Origin: Candidatus Latescibacterota bacterium
Lineage (GTDB): Bacteria; JAAXHH01; JABIQT01
Length of the DNA: 6,735 nucleotides
Direction: 5' to 3'
Assembly: GCA_018667995.1 (NCBI GenBank)
Contig: JABIQT010000867.1
Location: 1-6,735 of the forward strand
The notes beneath the pieces were generated by a model. The model worked only from the letters and a program-made list of their open reading frames with translations. It ran no database searches and was not told the origin of the DNA. The translations under genes and the position numbers were made by a program. Shown piece after piece: positions 1-6,706 of the stretch; position 1 is the stretch's first letter; each line of letters starts with the position of its first letter.

Positions 1-1473
1 GCCCCCGGTGTATTCCGCCGCGAGGGTCGTGAATGATTCGGCCGCGCCTTCGACATCGCCACTGAACAGCAGTAATTCCGCTAACCTATAGGCCGCCTCT
101 TCGCTCACCGAATCGTCCGATAGTCCTGATTGCGAGGGATCTGAGATCATCGTATACTGGGTTTCAGCCGCGTCAAGATTACCCAGGGCAAGGTGACAAT
201 CCCCGATTCGAAAGAGGATCTCTCTCTTGCGCTCTTTGTCCCCAGAGTCGCTTTGAAGCAAACGGAGCGCCGCCAACGCTGCTTCTGCGTTTGCATAGTG
301 GGTCAGTTGCAGGTCCGCTGACTGAAACCCGGCCTCAAAACTCTCCCCCGTCCCATCGTATCGCGAGGTTATTAGGCGGTACGTCGCCGCGGCGTCGTCG
401 ACACGGTTTGTGACACGATAGACATCGGCCAGTCCGAGAGCCGCTTGTGCAAGGATTTGTACCGGCAGTGGCCGATCCATCAATTGCATGTATGCGGCAA
501 TTGACTCATCGTAGTGCTGCTCTCTCGTGGACCACTGTCCGAACTCCGAGAGAAGGCGTCCATTCCCCCCGTTTATTCGATCGGCCTCTTCATATTCAGA
601 GAGAGCCTCAGACGGTCGGTTTCTCCGCAAATGGAAATTGCCCAGGAGCTTCAAGACCTCGACGGGTACGGAGTCCTCTTCAGAGGCACTAAGGATTTCC
701 TGGATAACAGGAGCATCGCCTCGGAGTTCTGTGAGCTGTTCTATCCTATCATCTATCAGGTCGAATTGTCTGGGTTGGTCCTTTAGGAGAAGAATGTACT
801 CTCGGGTGGCGTCAGGAATCTCTCCCAGAGTCGTGAATAAATCAGCAAGGTTTCGAGCGTAGAGGGAGGGTTTTTCAATAGCAATTCTTCCTCGAAGGAG
901 ATTCTCCGCAGCTTCACGGTACATACCTTGGTCCCGGTAGATCGCAGAAACGATGCGAAACATGGCCTCGTTCTTCGGATAGCTTTCGAGAATCATTTCA
1001 CACTGCCGACGTCCTTCGACCTCCCGATCGGTGCTGAAGTACACGTCGGCGAGCATTCTTCGATATACGACATTTCTTGGCGCGTCTTCGATCTGTTTTT
1101 GGAGCAACGCGATTGCCGGATCGAAGCGCTTGAGTCTAATATAGAGTCTTAGGACCGCGCTCAAAGCCTGCGCATCGTCTGGCTTTACGCGAAGCACGCG
1201 CTCATAGAGGGAGACAGCCTCATCGAAACGGCCCAATTCCTCGCGCTGGCGAGCCTGTTCGAGATCACGCTGCGGGTCGAACCTTGATTGCGGAGAGGCA
1301 AAGAACCGCATGCTAGTTACATAAGACACTTGTGAGTGACTGGTTGCGGGGGCAACAACTGAAAAGGCAATGACCGCCACAAGGAGAACACGGCACGCTG
1401 TTGGTGATTGCCAACCCATGCAGAGATTGTATGGTGGGTAGTGGGGTCTATTCACGAAATCTGGATGCGTCAT
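1..1473 (-). CDS. Exported tetratricopeptide-repeat protein, 3' end outside the window
   Basis: The frame is open from the start codon to the left edge (491 codons visible, no stop), so the protein is longer than seen. Two starts are possible. The ATG at 1473 overlaps the stop of the upstream gene as ATGA, and the ATG at 1419 puts a compact signal peptide at the N-terminus. Neither has a clear Shine-Dalgarno site. In long-form numbering, a hydrophobic core at about 29-43 (VLLVAVIAFSVVAPA) ends near ATSHSQ, with no lipobox cysteine, so export by Sec or an N-terminal anchor is likely, but not as a lipoprotein. About ten helix-turn-helix units follow, near 71-100, 110-132, 142-168, 175-202, 209-234, 274-301, 311-335, 346-372, 420-446 and 461-488. 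The first is canonical, with G81, F83, A86, Y90 and P98. The later units resemble YbgF/BamD-type TPRs. TPR solenoids bind proteins and are not enzymes. The position in an operon with an S41 protease suggests an adaptor or scaffold role in the periplasm, which is inference. Confidence 0.88.
   Translation of the reverse strand, partial: MTHPDFVNRPHYPPYNLCMGWQSPTACRVLLVAVIAFSVVAPATSHSQVSYVTSMRFFASPQSRFDPQRDLEQARQREELGRFDEAVSLYERVLRVKPDDAQALSAVLRLYIRLKRFDPAIALLQKQIEDAPRNVVYRRMLADVYFSTDREVEGRRQCEMILESYPKNEAMFRIVSAIYRDQGMYREAAENLLRGRIAIEKPSLYARNLADLFTTLGEIPDATREYILLLKDQPRQFDLIDDRIEQLTELRGDAPVIQEILSASEEDSVPVEVLKLLGNFHLRRNRPSEALSEYEEADRINGGNGRLLSEFGQWSTREQHYDESIAAYMQLMDRPLPVQILAQAALGLADVYRVTNRVDDAAATYRLITSRYDGTGESFEAGFQSADLQLTHYANAEAALAALRLLQSDSGDKERKREILFRIGDCHLALGNLDAAETQYTMISDPSQSGLSDDSVSEEAAYRLAELLLFSGDVEGAAESFTTLAAEYTGG
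1470..1473 (-). promoter_or_regulatory. ATGA stop/start overlap between the DUF4175 and TPR genes
   Basis: On the minus strand the DUF4175 stop TGA (1472-1470) overlaps an in-frame ATG (1473-1471) of the TPR gene. This four-base overlap is the classic sign of translational coupling by re-initiation. The weak Shine-Dalgarno context in front of this ATG fits dependence on ribosomes arriving from the upstream gene. If the true start is the ATG at 1419, the genes are instead separated by 50 bases and the overlap is incidental. Confidence 0.55.
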
Positions 1474-4400
1474 TTGGTAGAAGTGTTGTCACGAGGTTCT
1501 TCGGCCAATGCTCGAAAATAAGCACGAATCAGGTCTTCATATTCTGAGGGGTATGTACCGTCGCGAGCGCTGCGAAGTAGATCCTCTCGTAACGGTTGAT
1601 TAAACTGCAGCAATCCCGGTGGAAGTTCATTGGGAGAGGGGCGCCCGGCCAGATCTTCTCCAGAGGTCGCCTTGCGCTCGTCCTTATAGTCCCTCTCCCT
1701 CATAGATTTTGAAGCGTCAAGCAACCGTGAGAGTATTCGCTGCTGGCGTTCTACGAGCTCTGGTGCCATCTGCTGTTGGGTCAGCTGCTTGACCGACTCC
1801 TTCATCTCGCGCTCAATCTCACTCAGCCGTCCCAGAACATCGGCCTGCTGCCGCTGTTCACGCTGCATTTGCTCGAGACTTTTTCGAATCTGCTCCTGCT
1901 GCTGAGCCAACCGGCTCATGCGGGACCGCTCCTCCATGGACAGTTTCTGCTGGCCGGACTGTCCCTCTCCTTTGCCTTGCTGTTGCTGCATCATCTGATT
2001 TAATTCGTCGTTCACGCCGGACTGTTGCTGCGACATACTTTGCAGCTGCTGTAGCATCTCCATCATGCCAGACGACGATCCAGATGCATTCATATCATTC
2101 ATGGCTTGCTGCAAAGACAGCACCGTCTGATTCAACGAGGCCATAGCTTCAGCCTGCTGCTCTGCTGCGGTTCCACGATTTCGTTCGGAAATACCCCGGC
2201 TTGCGTCCTGCATTCGATTCAGGCTTTCACCGAGTGATCGACCTACCTCGGGTGAAACAAAGAACGTTTTCTGTGATGTGCCCACAAGAGCGTCGGCTAC
2301 CTGTGCCGTACCGTTCGACAAGCTCTGTTGGTCTTCGGCGATGTCATCCAATCGCGACTCACGCCCCGAAGGCTGTGCTGTGCGGGTCTTCAGTGCTTCT
2401 TGTCCCTGCGACAGGTCTACGAGGGTGTGCATGGCTTGCCGCATCTCGGCAGCGATCTGCTCTTGTTGCTCCTGTTGCATTTGTGACTGGGCGTCCTGTA
2501 GCTGTTGCGAAAGTTTCGAGAGTTGTTCACCAGTTTGTTCCTGGCCCTGCTGGGCCTGCTTCATCTGGCCTTTTGCCAGCTGCTGGGAAATCTGCTGCAT
2601 CTGCTGTGATATAGCCTGCTGCTCCATTGAACGCGCGGCGTCCTGAATTTCCTCCTGCGGCATTTCGCCCTGCACAGCTTCCATGGATTCTGCCAATTCC
2701 TGCAGATCTTTCTGCATGGCTTGCGTGTCCTTACTCAATTCGGCCTGCTTCTCTGAAAGGCTTTCGCGAGCCTCTGATGAGGGATTCTCTGAGTCGTTCT
2801 GCGTGGCATACTGTAGCTCCTCCTGCCGTTCCAGTAGCTCCTGCGCCTTCTTGACGGCAGACTCCATCTGCTGCTCGGCACGCATCCTCTTCAGTATAGA
2901 AAGACTACGCTCGAGCCGTTTTTTGAATTCTTCCTGTGCCTTCTCAAAATCCTTCATGGCTTCAGCCATCTGTTGCTCATCTGGATTCTGCATGGCCTCT
3001 TTAACGTCTTTCATGGCTTCCATGAGTTCGGGAGTCGCTATCTCCTGAAACATCTCTCGGAGTTGGTTCATCTGTTCGAGGAGTTCGGGGTCCATGACGT
3101 TTTGCTGCTCAACCTGTTCCATGGCTTCCTGCATAGCGTCAGCTACCTTGAGAACAGCCTCGGCCATCTGCTCCTGCTCTTTAACAAGTGCTTCCGCTTC
3201 TTTCTTCTGCTCCCAGGAAAGATCTGATGGCTCCTGGGACGATTCTGATTGTTCAAGTTCGCGGTTAAGGTCCTTGAGTTGTTCTTCGGCCGCTTCCTGC
3301 CTCTGGAGCAACTCTGTGATATCAGCAACATGTTCCCCCTGTTGAGCATCGAGTTCCTCGTAGATCTCTGTAATGGAAGGAAATCGTACGGTATATGTCT
3401 GGCTGACAGCAAGTTTGGGACCGCTAATGGCATCATTGTCGTAGATTTCCACATAGTATGAGAGGACATCCTCCGGGAACAGACCGAGATTGGAAAGGTC
3501 CCAGACAAACGGAACTGAAAAGGTTCTCACTCGCTGATCAACGGGAATATACTTACGTCTTGTGGCTCCACCGTCCGTATCCTGGTATACAAGATTCATC
3601 GATGAAAATCCGAAATCATCTGATGCGGCGAGAACGAGAGGAATCATCATGTTTTCGTTTAAATCGGTATCCTGTCCTGGCGAGATGATACGGACCTCAG
3701 GTAGTCGATCCGATAAGGCGGTTATCTGGTACTGAGGAGGTGTGGCGTTGCTCCTATCGTTCTCATTTCGCAACTGGATACTGTACCGATCATTCTGTGT
3801 TATCTTCAATGCGGTTAGCGCATGACTACCTGAGACTGCCATGGGGAATGTTTCCTTCGTTCCAGCCATGACGACCTGGGCCTGCTCGATCGGCTGGCTT
3901 GCCCTGACATCCAGAGTGACATTTGTACCCTTGATCGCAATGATGTCACCGGTACCATCCGCTGTTGTTCTTGGAGCCATCTTTGTATATGACGGATATT
4001 CATAGGTAAGATTGAGTGAGGCAATAGTGGGGCGGTCCACTACTGTAATGGTGAAGCGGCCGCTCAACGCGTCTCCGGCTTCCACCAGGTACTGAATGTC
4101 CTGATTGAGGGCACGGAGAGTCAGCGAAAACGTTGACCCGGTATCACGCGTCAGCGTATGCTGCTCCTCTTCTCCATCTTTTCGCGTCAGGTGAACAAAA
4201 GCATCATCAGGCATCTCACCCGATACCGTGGCAGCTATGGTCACAGACCCGCCCGCTGGGATTTCGAAGTCACCCGGTATCACGGATAGAAAGGTGCGCT
4301 GCGGTACTGGATAGTGCGTCAGGGGATGGGATATTCTTTCGAAGGCCGATATCAATGGGGAGTAGAATAACGCCAACGCCAAGCAAAGTATCAAAGCCGA

Positions 4401-4904
4401 GAGCCCAAGCAATCGGCCCGCTTTTGGAATGCGTTCTCGACCATCTGCATCGTTAAAGTCAGCATGCTCAGTCGCGGCGGCACTGGAGACGATCGCGGCC
4501 TCAAGCAACCCCTCAGCTCCTGGGGCCGACGCGGATTCTCGCTGGCGCCAGAGCTGTAGTGTCATGGTTACACGATCGAAGAGGTCCGGATAGTGTCGAT
4601 CCACCCTCCGCGCGAGCTGGTCATCGGACGGCTTTTTTAGATAGGGAGAAATACAGTAGCGTGCGGCTATAGCAAAAAGAACCACGAGGCAGAAAGAGAG
4701 GAGTACCAGCCGTGGAGCGGGAGAGAATCGAAAAAGGGCTTCCGTCCCTCCCGAAAACAGGACAGCCATGAGAATAGCTGCACCCAGTATCAGGAGTCCG
4801 CTAACAGCGGCAACTCTTCTACGTTTTACGCGCAACCCGTCAAGACGCTCCTGTAGATGTTTCCACGAGTCTTCTGACGGATTGGACGGTGATCGAGTTT
4901 GCAA
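1470..4904 (-). CDS. DUF4175-type membrane-anchored giant coiled-coil protein
   Basis: This 1144-residue protein of unknown function starts at TTG. No ATG or GTG lies nearby in frame, and the next Met is at residue 46, inside the first membrane segment. A basic N-terminus (RVKRRR, 25-30) precedes membrane segments at about 31-50 and 64-83. A short, probably cytoplasmic domain (about 84-162, with LARRVDRHYPDLFDR at 97-111) leads to a third segment at about 163-183. By the positive-inside rule the remaining 960 residues are periplasmic. Residues 200-510 look like several beta-rich Ig-like domains (YEYPSYT at 301-307; ASDDFGF at 427-433). Residues 515-1075 are almost all helical coiled coil, very rich in Gln, Glu and Met, with a Ser/Gly linker at 939-946. 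The C-terminus has the motif YPSEYEDLIRAYFRALAEE (1118-1136), typical of the family. The gene begins 53 bases after the protease stop and its stop overlaps a candidate TPR start. The family name rests on architecture and remembered motifs, not on a search. The reading frame itself is certain. Confidence 0.9.
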   Translation of the reverse strand: MQTRSPSNPSEDSWKHLQERLDGLRVKRRRVAAVSGLLILGAAILMAVLFSGGTEALFRFSPAPRLVLLSFCLVVLFAIAARYCISPYLKKPSDDQLARRVDRHYPDLFDRVTMTLQLWRQRESASAPGAEGLLEAAIVSSAAATEHADFNDADGRERIPKAGRLLGLSALILCLALALFYSPLISAFERISHPLTHYPVPQRTFLSVIPGDFEIPAGGSVTIAATVSGEMPDDAFVHLTRKDGEEEQHTLTRDTGSTFSLTLRALNQDIQYLVEAGDALSGRFTITVVDRPTIASLNLTYEYPSYTKMAPRTTADGTGDIIAIKGTNVTLDVRASQPIEQAQVVMAGTKETFPMAVSGSHALTALKITQNDRYSIQLRNENDRSNATPPQYQITALSDRLPEVRIISPGQDTDLNENMMIPLVLAASDDFGFSSMNLVYQDTDGGATRRKYIPVDQRVRTFSVPFVWDLSNLGLFPEDVLSYYVEIYDNDAISGPKLAVSQTYTVRFPSITEIYEELDAQQGEHVADITELLQRQEAAEEQLKDLNRELEQSESSQEPSDLSWEQKKEAEALVKEQEQMAEAVLKVADAMQEAMEQVEQQNVMDPELLEQMNQLREMFQEIATPELMEAMKDVKEAMQNPDEQQMAEAMKDFEKAQEEFKKRLERSLSILKRMRAEQQMESAVKKAQELLERQEELQYATQNDSENPSSEARESLSEKQAELSKDTQAMQKDLQELAESMEAVQGEMPQEEIQDAARSMEQQAISQQMQQISQQLAKGQMKQAQQGQEQTGEQLSKLSQQLQDAQSQMQQEQQEQIAAEMRQAMHTLVDLSQGQEALKTRTAQPSGRESRLDDIAEDQQSLSNGTAQVADALVGTSQKTFFVSPEVGRSLGESLNRMQDASRGISERNRGTAAEQQAEAMASLNQTVLSLQQAMNDMNASGSSSGMMEMLQQLQSMSQQQSGVNDELNQMMQQQQGKGEGQSGQQKLSMEERSRMSRLAQQQEQIRKSLEQMQREQRQQADVLGRLSEIEREMKESVKQLTQQQMAPELVERQQRILSRLLDASKSMRERDYKDERKATSGEDLAGRPSPNELPPGLLQFNQPLREDLLRSARDGTYPSEYEDLIRAYFRALAEEPRDNTSTK

Positions 4905-4911
4905 GACCGTG

Positions 4912-4917
4912 CCCTTT
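4912..4917 (-). promoter_or_regulatory. Probable ribosome binding site of the DUF4175 gene
   Basis: AAAGGG on the minus strand lies 7 bases before the TTG at 4904. It is a partial Shine-Dalgarno match and supports TTG as the start, since the frame stays open further upstream but offers no ATG, GTG or TTG in the gap. Confidence 0.5.
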
Positions 4918-4935
4918 AAGTGATCGGTGCTGCCT

Positions 4936-4955
4936 GAATCGACCGCGGCCGATTC
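4936..4955. repeat. Near-perfect 20-base palindrome between the protease and DUF4175 genes
   Basis: GAATCG at 4936-4941 pairs with CGATTC at 4950-4955, around a self-complementary CCGCGG core (4943-4948). The only mismatch is A4942 against C4949. It begins 2 bases after the protease stop codon (TAA, 4960-4958 on the minus strand) and ends about 31 bases before the DUF4175 start. In RNA it would form a short GC-rich hairpin. No U run follows on the minus strand, so it is not a standard intrinsic terminator. A weak attenuator, an RNA-processing or stability element, or a protein-binding site are all possible. Confidence 0.5.
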
Positions 4956-4957
4956 GT

Positions 4958-6580
4958 TTATTGATCCAGGTCTTCGGTCAGGAGCATGGCATGCGTTGTG
5001 AAGAGTGCCAATGCATTCTGAAGCTGTATGTCGCCGTCCGCTGCCACACGATGAGCTTCCTCGTCACCCCAGAGGTTTCGGGCGATGGAACGCTTCAGTT
5101 GCAGCTTTGTTACGTCCATGTCCACGTCGAAATCTTCCGAAGTAAATTCTATGCCTGAGTCCTGTGCCTGGGCTCTGAATCCACTAACCATCTGGTCATC
5201 AACCTCAAAGGTGGTGAGGAACGATTCGAAGTCACCCTTCAAGCCCTGGTGCTCAACGCCGTAGTCCGTTGCAAATTCGAAGGTAGCGCGATCGAACTGC
5301 TGCCAGCCCCGAAATTTGGCCACGAATGGAAATTCACGCTTGGGAGCTTTGATCTTCACATCTGGTGTTATCCCTCCACCGCCATATACAAGACGTCCAC
5401 TGGCGGTTTCAAAAACGGGTTGATCTTCGGCACCGGCTTCAAGCGCCTCGTCGCCATCTGGTTCATCCTGCATGGCCTCTTCAAGGTAGTCCTGATATGA
5501 CTTATTCTTGTAGTCTCGCTGAATCAATCGGCCGCTTGGCGTATAGTATTTAGCTGTCGTGAGTTTAAGGGCCGATCCGTCTCTCAGGTAGGGTTCCGCG
5601 AAAAGCGTCTGCACCAGGCCTTTGCCAAAGCTGCGTGTCCCGACTATTACCCCGCGGTCATAGTCTTGAACAGCACCTGCTACGATTTCGGAGGCACTGG
5701 CGGATCTATGATCTAGGAGGATAATCAGAGGCACCTCGGGGTGTGCCGGCGCGTCGGCCGTAAATTCCTGATTGGCACTGCGCGTTCGACCTCGGGTGGA
5801 GACGATCGTCTTTCCGCCCCCAATGAACTTGTTGGATACTTCTACCGCCTGATCAAGATATCCGCCGGTGTTTCCTCTAAGGTCCAATATCAGCTGGTTC
5901 ATTCCCATGGCTTCGAGTTTGTTAAGGGCATCCTCCAGTTCCTGCGAGGTTGTCTTCGCAAATCGGATCATCTGGATATATCCAGTCCTGTCATCCAGCA
6001 AATAGGAGGCACGAACACTTTTAATAGGAATTTTGTCGCGGGTTATCGTTGCAACAAAGGGCTTCTCTACACCTGCTCGGTCAATGGTGACGTCAACAGT
6101 GGTGCCCTTCTCTCCTCGCAGTTTTTCAACTACCTCATCATTCTTTATTCCTATGGCGGACTGGCCATTAATCTTGATAATCCGGTCGCCAGATCGTAGA
6201 CCGACGGCCTCTGAGGGTGAGCCCTCGATAACCGAAATCACTGAGAGTATGCCTCCCAGTACATCAAACTCAATGCCCACACCGTAGAACTTCCCGCTGA
6301 AGTTCTCTCCCATTTTGTCGAAATTCTCTTTGCTGAGAAAGTTCGAATGAGGATCAAGTGAGCGGAGCATCCCATCGATAGCTCCATAGATCAACGTATT
6401 GGCTTCGACTTTCTCCACGTAATTGTCATTAACCAACTTCAATACATTAGTGAACAGAGTGAGGCCCGCATATAAATCATTAGCGGCGTGCGACTCTCGT
6501 GTGGCGGTATTACCGATCATGAAGGAAAACACGGCCACAGATAAGACGACAGTCACGAAGCGTTTTCTGCGTATATACAT
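4958..6580 (-). CDS. ctpA: S41 family C-terminal processing peptidase (CtpA/Prc type) with PDZ domain
   Basis: This 540-residue periplasmic serine protease should cleave exported proteins from or near their C-termini. A basic start (YIRRKR) and hydrophobic core (8-24) form a Sec signal or anchor, with possible cleavage near SHA-AN (30-34). The N-terminal helical region (37-98) contains the family motif MLRSLDPHSNFL (71-82). A PDZ domain covers about 99-180 (YGVGIEF; GLRSGDRIIKING at 127-139). The S41 core contains LILDLRGNTGGYLDQA (230-245), the nucleophile Ser295 (middle Ser of SASAS, 293-297), general base Lys320 (GKG) and Gln324. The 25-residue Ser-Lys and 4-residue Lys-Gln spacings match E. 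coli Prc S430/K455 and Bacillus CtpB S309/K334/Q338, so it should be active. An acidic insert (366-386) sits before the GGGGITPDV strand (400-408). A 130-residue C-terminal extension (about 412-540), absent from short CtpA proteins, follows. It has a good ribosome binding site and promoter, and is first in the operon. The exact substrate is unknown. Confidence 0.95.
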   Translation of the reverse strand: MYIRRKRFVTVVLSVAVFSFMIGNTATRESHAANDLYAGLTLFTNVLKLVNDNYVEKVEANTLIYGAIDGMLRSLDPHSNFLSKENFDKMGENFSGKFYGVGIEFDVLGGILSVISVIEGSPSEAVGLRSGDRIIKINGQSAIGIKNDEVVEKLRGEKGTTVDVTIDRAGVEKPFVATITRDKIPIKSVRASYLLDDRTGYIQMIRFAKTTSQELEDALNKLEAMGMNQLILDLRGNTGGYLDQAVEVSNKFIGGGKTIVSTRGRTRSANQEFTADAPAHPEVPLIILLDHRSASASEIVAGAVQDYDRGVIVGTRSFGKGLVQTLFAEPYLRDGSALKLTTAKYYTPSGRLIQRDYKNKSYQDYLEEAMQDEPDGDEALEAGAEDQPVFETASGRLVYGGGGITPDVKIKAPKREFPFVAKFRGWQQFDRATFEFATDYGVEHQGLKGDFESFLTTFEVDDQMVSGFRAQAQDSGIEFTSEDFDVDMDVTKLQLKRSIARNLWGDEEAHRVAADGDIQLQNALALFTTHAMLLTEDLDQ

Positions 6581-6587
6581 TAGCCTA

Positions 6588-6593
6588 CTCCTT
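6588..6593 (-). promoter_or_regulatory. Shine-Dalgarno site of the S41 protease gene
   Basis: AAGGAG on the minus strand lies 7 bases before the ATG at 6580. This strong match with ideal spacing settles the protease start. Confidence 0.88.
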
Positions 6594-6677: not shown

Positions 6678-6706
6678 ATGATAGCGCAAAGCAGGTTCAA
6701 AGTCAA
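6678..6706 (-). promoter_or_regulatory. Sigma70-type promoter driving the three-gene cluster
   Basis: On the minus strand, TTGACT (6706-6701) and TATCAT (6683-6678) are separated by exactly 17 bases. Each hexamer matches the sigma70 consensus at 5 of 6 positions. The predicted transcription start is near 6671, giving a leader of about 90 bases before the protease ATG. It is the only strong promoter candidate seen upstream of the cluster. If the host uses a Bacteroidota-type -33/-7 signal instead, this call would be weaker. Confidence 0.7.

Follow-up and report, generated by a model that had tools for sequence, protein, structure and literature searches.

We describe a four-gene envelope operon, conserved across an entire order, in which an S41 protease gene is followed by genes for a 1144-residue DUF4175 protein, an exported TPR protein and the murein-peptide recycling ligase Mpl. 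On our preferred reading, to which we give an even chance of being correct, the DUF4175 protein is a peptidoglycan- or division-linked inner-membrane scaffold with an obligate periplasmic TPR partner, and a single lineage has added a C-terminal processing (CTP) protease and Mpl to this pair. The original prediction, made from a 6735-base stretch of DNA (the window), was of an envelope protease module; it is partly supported, being partly right on composition and wrong on emphasis.

The operon and its conservation within the order

The window spans all of contig C869, part of a draft genome of 6.06 Mb. Its minus strand, to which all window coordinates given here refer, carries three co-oriented genes, encoding the S41 protease (540 amino acids; 4958..6580), the DUF4175 protein (TTG start; 1470..4904) and the first 491 residues of the TPR protein, which is cut by the contig end (1..1473). 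The tight spacing originally noted is evident from the ORF coordinates and the Pfam assignments: 53 nt separate the S41 and DUF4175 genes, and the DUF4175 stop and TPR start share a 4-nt ATGA overlap (1470..1473). An AAGGAG ribosome-binding site (6588..6593) lies before the ATG of the protease gene, an AAAGG site precedes the TTG start of the DUF4175 gene, and a candidate sigma-70-like promoter is located upstream of the operon (6678..6706; 10/12 positions, a consensus match that is weak evidence by itself). All three products also bear export or membrane signals, as originally noted, namely an N-terminal hydrophobic helix in the protease, three transmembrane segments in the DUF4175 protein and a signal helix in the TPR protein.

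Searching the same genome with the Mur ligase of a relative recovered contig C8, which opens with the missing TPR C-terminus (139 amino acids, L135:1-420), alignable to the C-termini of related TPR proteins, and continues with mpl (L135:417-1841), which shares 4 nt with the end of the TPR gene and whose product exceeds the TIGR01081 equivalog cut-off (473.3 bits vs 388.7). Alignment to relatives leaves a gap of about twenty residues between the two TPR parts. No exact end overlap was found between C869 and C8, and we therefore infer the join from the gene order in relatives. The proposed single operon of exported proteins is supported, and it extends to the TPR end and Mpl on C8, both unseen in the window.

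The order was sampled through 16 genomes from at least three families. The S41 gene adjoins the window-type DUF4175 gene in all 16, with one intervening gene in G001, and, wherever the contigs reach, the TPR gene comes after DUF4175 and mpl after the TPR gene; purD mostly lies upstream of the operon in the opposite direction. The Pfam model recovers at least one and no more than three S41 genes per genome of the order. In G001, which belongs to another family, S41 and DUF4175 are separated by a 5'-nucleotidase-like gene, and DUF4175 and TPR by a GDSL gene; all four operon genes, with TPR located by profile search, nevertheless retain their order and share one strand. Because the arrangement is kept in 15 further genomes, it is neither a chance arrangement nor a mis-assembly, and the survival of the gene order through insertions argues for selection over chance.

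Distribution beyond the order

Public genomes were scanned with a DUF4175 alignment narrower than the cross-phylum one, yielding 79 loci, some of them identical to the order's own records; 77 distinct outside loci, including extra loci from distant genomes, were analyzed. Within the fetched stretches, an S41 gene was found near DUF4175 in none of the 77. DUF4159 is encoded directly upstream of DUF4175 in 38 of the 67 outside loci that have an upstream neighbor, the next gene downstream encodes the TPR family in 26 of 70 that have a downstream neighbor, and the (DUF4159)-DUF4175-TPR genes are adjacent in many FCB-type lineages. Genomes with the window-type DUF4175 contained the TPR family in every case tested (17/17), including those in which the two genes are unlinked: where they are not adjacent, the family was present in 10/10 genomes, with matches that cover most of the profile (E-values 1e-57 to 1e-132), and it was also recovered in three genomes where they are. 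A match at the same level occurred in one of 31 genomes lacking DUF4175, itself 59% complete; in TPR-rich genomes, 31 candidates were scored and weak members could be missed.

Given that S41 is linked in the order only and the TPR family co-occurs with DUF4175 across phyla, the protease is a lineage addition and DUF4175-TPR the lasting pair. The notion of the protease as the core of the module does not survive this comparison, its linkage being confined to one order (16/16 vs 0/77 outside loci). The pattern named beforehand as counting against the module, adjacency in close relatives with scatter elsewhere, was found for S41 and was not found for DUF4175-TPR.

Two other readings of the protease turn on the same data. 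Mpl and S41 may simply be co-transcribed, as housekeeping genes that happen to lie in the DUF4175-TPR operon and have no mechanism in common with the pair; the absence of S41 from the neighborhood outside the order and the two inserted genes tolerated in G001 are consistent with this, but we consider it unlikely because the gene order is kept across three families despite the insertions and two of the four genes come from families with known wall-related members. Alternatively, S41 might process or remove the DUF4175 or TPR protein as a form of quality control. Its first place in the operon, the shared compartment and the tight linkage across the order would suit such a role, which nevertheless appears quite improbable, as neither a cleavage motif nor a degradation signal was found and the module occurs without a linked S41 in other phyla.

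A family of ~420 amino acids (motif IPMDLxQTDHLKAYGIAYW) with no Pfam or NCBIfam match is encoded after the TPR gene in several phyla (L148:9387-10649, L079:14953-16215); it is present in 12 of 13 genomes tested and unlinked in the window's order.

The protease and the TPR protein

Judging from its domains and residues, the protease is an S41A C-terminal processing peptidase: it contains the S41 catalytic domain (5516..5989; Pfam, orthologue alignment; Peptidase_S41 match 8.6e-49), a Pfam-matched PDZ domain (residues 101-173; 6062..6280) and a Ser/Lys dyad, and scores above the cut-off of NCBIfam TIGR00225. Ser295 (5698-5696) and Lys320 (5623-5621), which are 25 residues apart, are invariant together with Gln324 in 8/8 orthologues, their catalytic roles being assigned from the family motif. 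Hydropathy indicates an N-terminal hydrophobic or signal helix (residues 8-26; 6503..6559). The closest PDB match is Pseudomonas aeruginosa CtpA (1e-66, vs 5e-32 for Prc), and an L..F..VL pattern near the N-terminus can be aligned with the helix through which CtpA dimerises and to which LbcA binds.

The TPR protein, recognized by Pfam (2.4e-22) and by its relatives, begins with a signal helix (residues 24-39; 1357..1404). In the AlphaFold2 model (pLDDT 90), residues 41-61 are disordered and a TPR superhelix spans residues 67-487 (13..1275; pLDDT >90 over most of its length), starting ~25 residues after the signal helix. The original observation that this protein lacks a lipobox was borne out both for the window protein and for its module orthologues, which carry Sec-type signals; the sole lipobox among the surveyed proteins is that of an unrelated TPR protein encoded upstream at L064.

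These features bear on the proposal that the TPR protein serves S41 as an adaptor, activating or feeding it, as LbcA does for CtpA and NlpI for Prc, with DUF4175 anchoring the complex. Several observations lean this way: the genes form one operon in 16/16 genomes, CtpA is the closest structural match of the protease, among natural bacterial PDB entries the TPR profile matches LbcA best (7.6e-23), and the L..F..VL pattern aligns with the LbcA-bound helix. However, that helix also dimerises CtpB, TPR and DUF4175 orthologues occur across phyla with no S41 nearby (0/77), and we discounted homology to LbcA as generic TPR likeness, since eukaryotic OGT and designed TPRs score above it and LbcA falls outside the Foldseek top 50. 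LbcA binds CtpA via an N-terminal helical adaptor domain that precedes its TPRs (PMC11021448); such a domain is absent from the AlphaFold2 model of the window protein. With neither this defining domain nor a lipobox, and with relatives that have no linked protease, the window protein falls outside the LbcA/NlpI adaptor class with which it had been compared, and we judge an adaptor role improbable, although the TPR protein may still make contact with the protease.

The DUF4175 protein

The DUF4175 assignment (PF13779) has an E-value of 2.1e-15 and a score of 56.3 bits, above the gathering score of 27.3. The AlphaFold2 model (50 orthologues; mean pLDDT 83), read together with sequence features and alignments, shows in order a transmembrane hairpin (residues 28-89; 4638..4823), a third transmembrane helix (residues 158-179; 4368..4433), three Ig-like beta domains (residues 204-507; 3384..4295), whose Foldseek matches are Ig/FNIII arrays, a long Q/E-rich helical, coiled-coil region (residues 511-1077; 1674..3374) and the conserved C-terminal YFxAL motif (YPsEYEdLIRaYFRAL, residues 1118-1134; 1503..1553). 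The N-terminus is positively charged, which under the positive-inside rule would place the bulk of the protein, including the Ig-like domains, in the periplasm. Matches of the DUF4175 profile in the PDB, for the most part to designed or low-complexity coiled coils, were disregarded.

Wall, division and envelope neighbors

Gene neighborhood, an indirect line of evidence, links DUF4175 to the wall in independent lineages. Four Ignavibacteria/Bacteroidota loci (L071, L072, L073 and L095) have wall and division genes ahead of DUF4175; in the first of these (L071:3252-13369), murC, murB, ftsQ, ftsA and ftsZ (NCBIfam names) lead directly into DUF4159 and DUF4175. In two KSB1-type loci (L061 and L079), SurA is encoded before DUF4175, and FtsE and FtsX after it. 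DUF4159 is unlinked from DUF4175 in the window's order, where it comes after the CdaA diadenylate cyclase and a D-Ala-D-Ala peptidase; the three genes stand in a row at L138:6064-9191 and L141:7642-11151, and L142 has the same layout, judged by length and position. In Zixibacteria, SecD and SecF precede DUF4175 and a TMEM260-like transferase is also a neighbor, which suggests a general envelope link more than one with the wall, and several lineages have neither wall nor division genes near DUF4175.

A second type of DUF4175 is encoded in the window's own genome (contig C14, L007:1-3309) and at L010, L016, L022 and L029; in genomes of the same order it lies 3 nt after the BatA/VWA gene of MoxR-DUF58-BatA clusters, which suggests a broader role for the family. 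The DUF4175-TPR pair might accordingly help to assemble membrane or secreted protein complexes in the manner of Bat (MoxR/VWA-type) factors, with secondary links to the wall. This doubtful alternative draws further on the placement of DUF4159 by BatA and DUF58 in L045 and on the SecDF neighbors in Zixibacteria; against it, neither MoxR nor DUF58 occurs near the window-type DUF4175 and several lineages show the wall and division neighbors described above. At the order's S41-type loci, MoxR, DUF58 and VWA genes are all absent, which sets these loci apart from the Bat/MoxR-VWA clusters.

Among other observations at such loci, a histone-deacetylase-family gene comes after the second DUF4175 type on C14, a contig cut upstream; a Peptidase_MA-TPR fusion comes after DUF4175, and MoxR next, at L043:6141-11166 and L037:6140-11130, with DUF58 and BatA following in L043; and the window's own genome has a tandem pair of second-type DUF4159 genes (L136:2-1423).

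Discussion

We propose that the core of the system is a two-protein envelope device, consisting of DUF4175 and an obligate soluble periplasmic TPR partner. DUF4175 would be held in the inner membrane by its three N-terminal transmembrane helices and would project its three Ig-like domains and a coiled-coil region of ~570 residues into the periplasm, where the TPR protein probably docks on it. The device would contribute to peptidoglycan growth or to division. The operon of the window's order would have gained the CTP protease and the murein-peptide recycling ligase Mpl, with the protease most likely trimming or degrading wall-related proteins in step with wall turnover.

DUF4175 and DUF4159 occur in many FCB-type phyla and are nearly absent from the open literature searched, and the window-type DUF4175 travels with one TPR family. 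The position immediately behind ftsZ in Ignavibacteria, and alongside Mpl and a CTP protease here, points to wall growth or division as a specific role, open to testing, for this family of uncharacterized giant membrane proteins. A bolder version, which we advance only tentatively, is that DUF4159-DUF4175-TPR constitutes an undescribed, widespread FCB peptidoglycan or divisome scaffold into which the CTP protease has been built here as a regulated output, so that a single operon would govern wall turnover, proteolysis and muropeptide recycling.

Comparison with known systems

The literature searched yielded no described system of such composition, in agreement with the original prediction. DUF4175 is almost absent from the open literature searched, in which one paper was found for it and nothing for DUF4159, and the titles and abstracts of the MoxR/Bat literature mention no function for either domain. 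AdvA of Acinetobacter baumannii, a DUF4175-annotated protein, is essential for division and localizes to mid-cell (PMC7481262); it shares the DUF4175 annotation with the window protein and differs from it in having that annotation before residue 203 and two predicted transmembrane segments.

The MoxR-DUF58-BatA/VWA (Bat) clusters resemble the present system in that DUF4175 and DUF4159 relatives, and TPR proteins as well, lie in or near them, whereas the window operon has no MoxR, DUF58 or VWA gene. Escherichia coli Prc-NlpI likewise combines a CTP with a TPR protein in the periplasm, but NlpI is a small, four-TPR lipoprotein and the window protease matches CtpA far better than Prc. The CtpA-LbcA system of P. 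aeruginosa shares with the window an S41 CTP of the CtpA/CtpB type with a PDZ domain, a long exported TPR protein and a link to cell-wall enzymes. It differs in that the window TPR protein is not a lipoprotein and has no adaptor domain, the C-terminal 185 residues of the window protease are unmatched to CtpA, and the window operon adds DUF4175 and Mpl.
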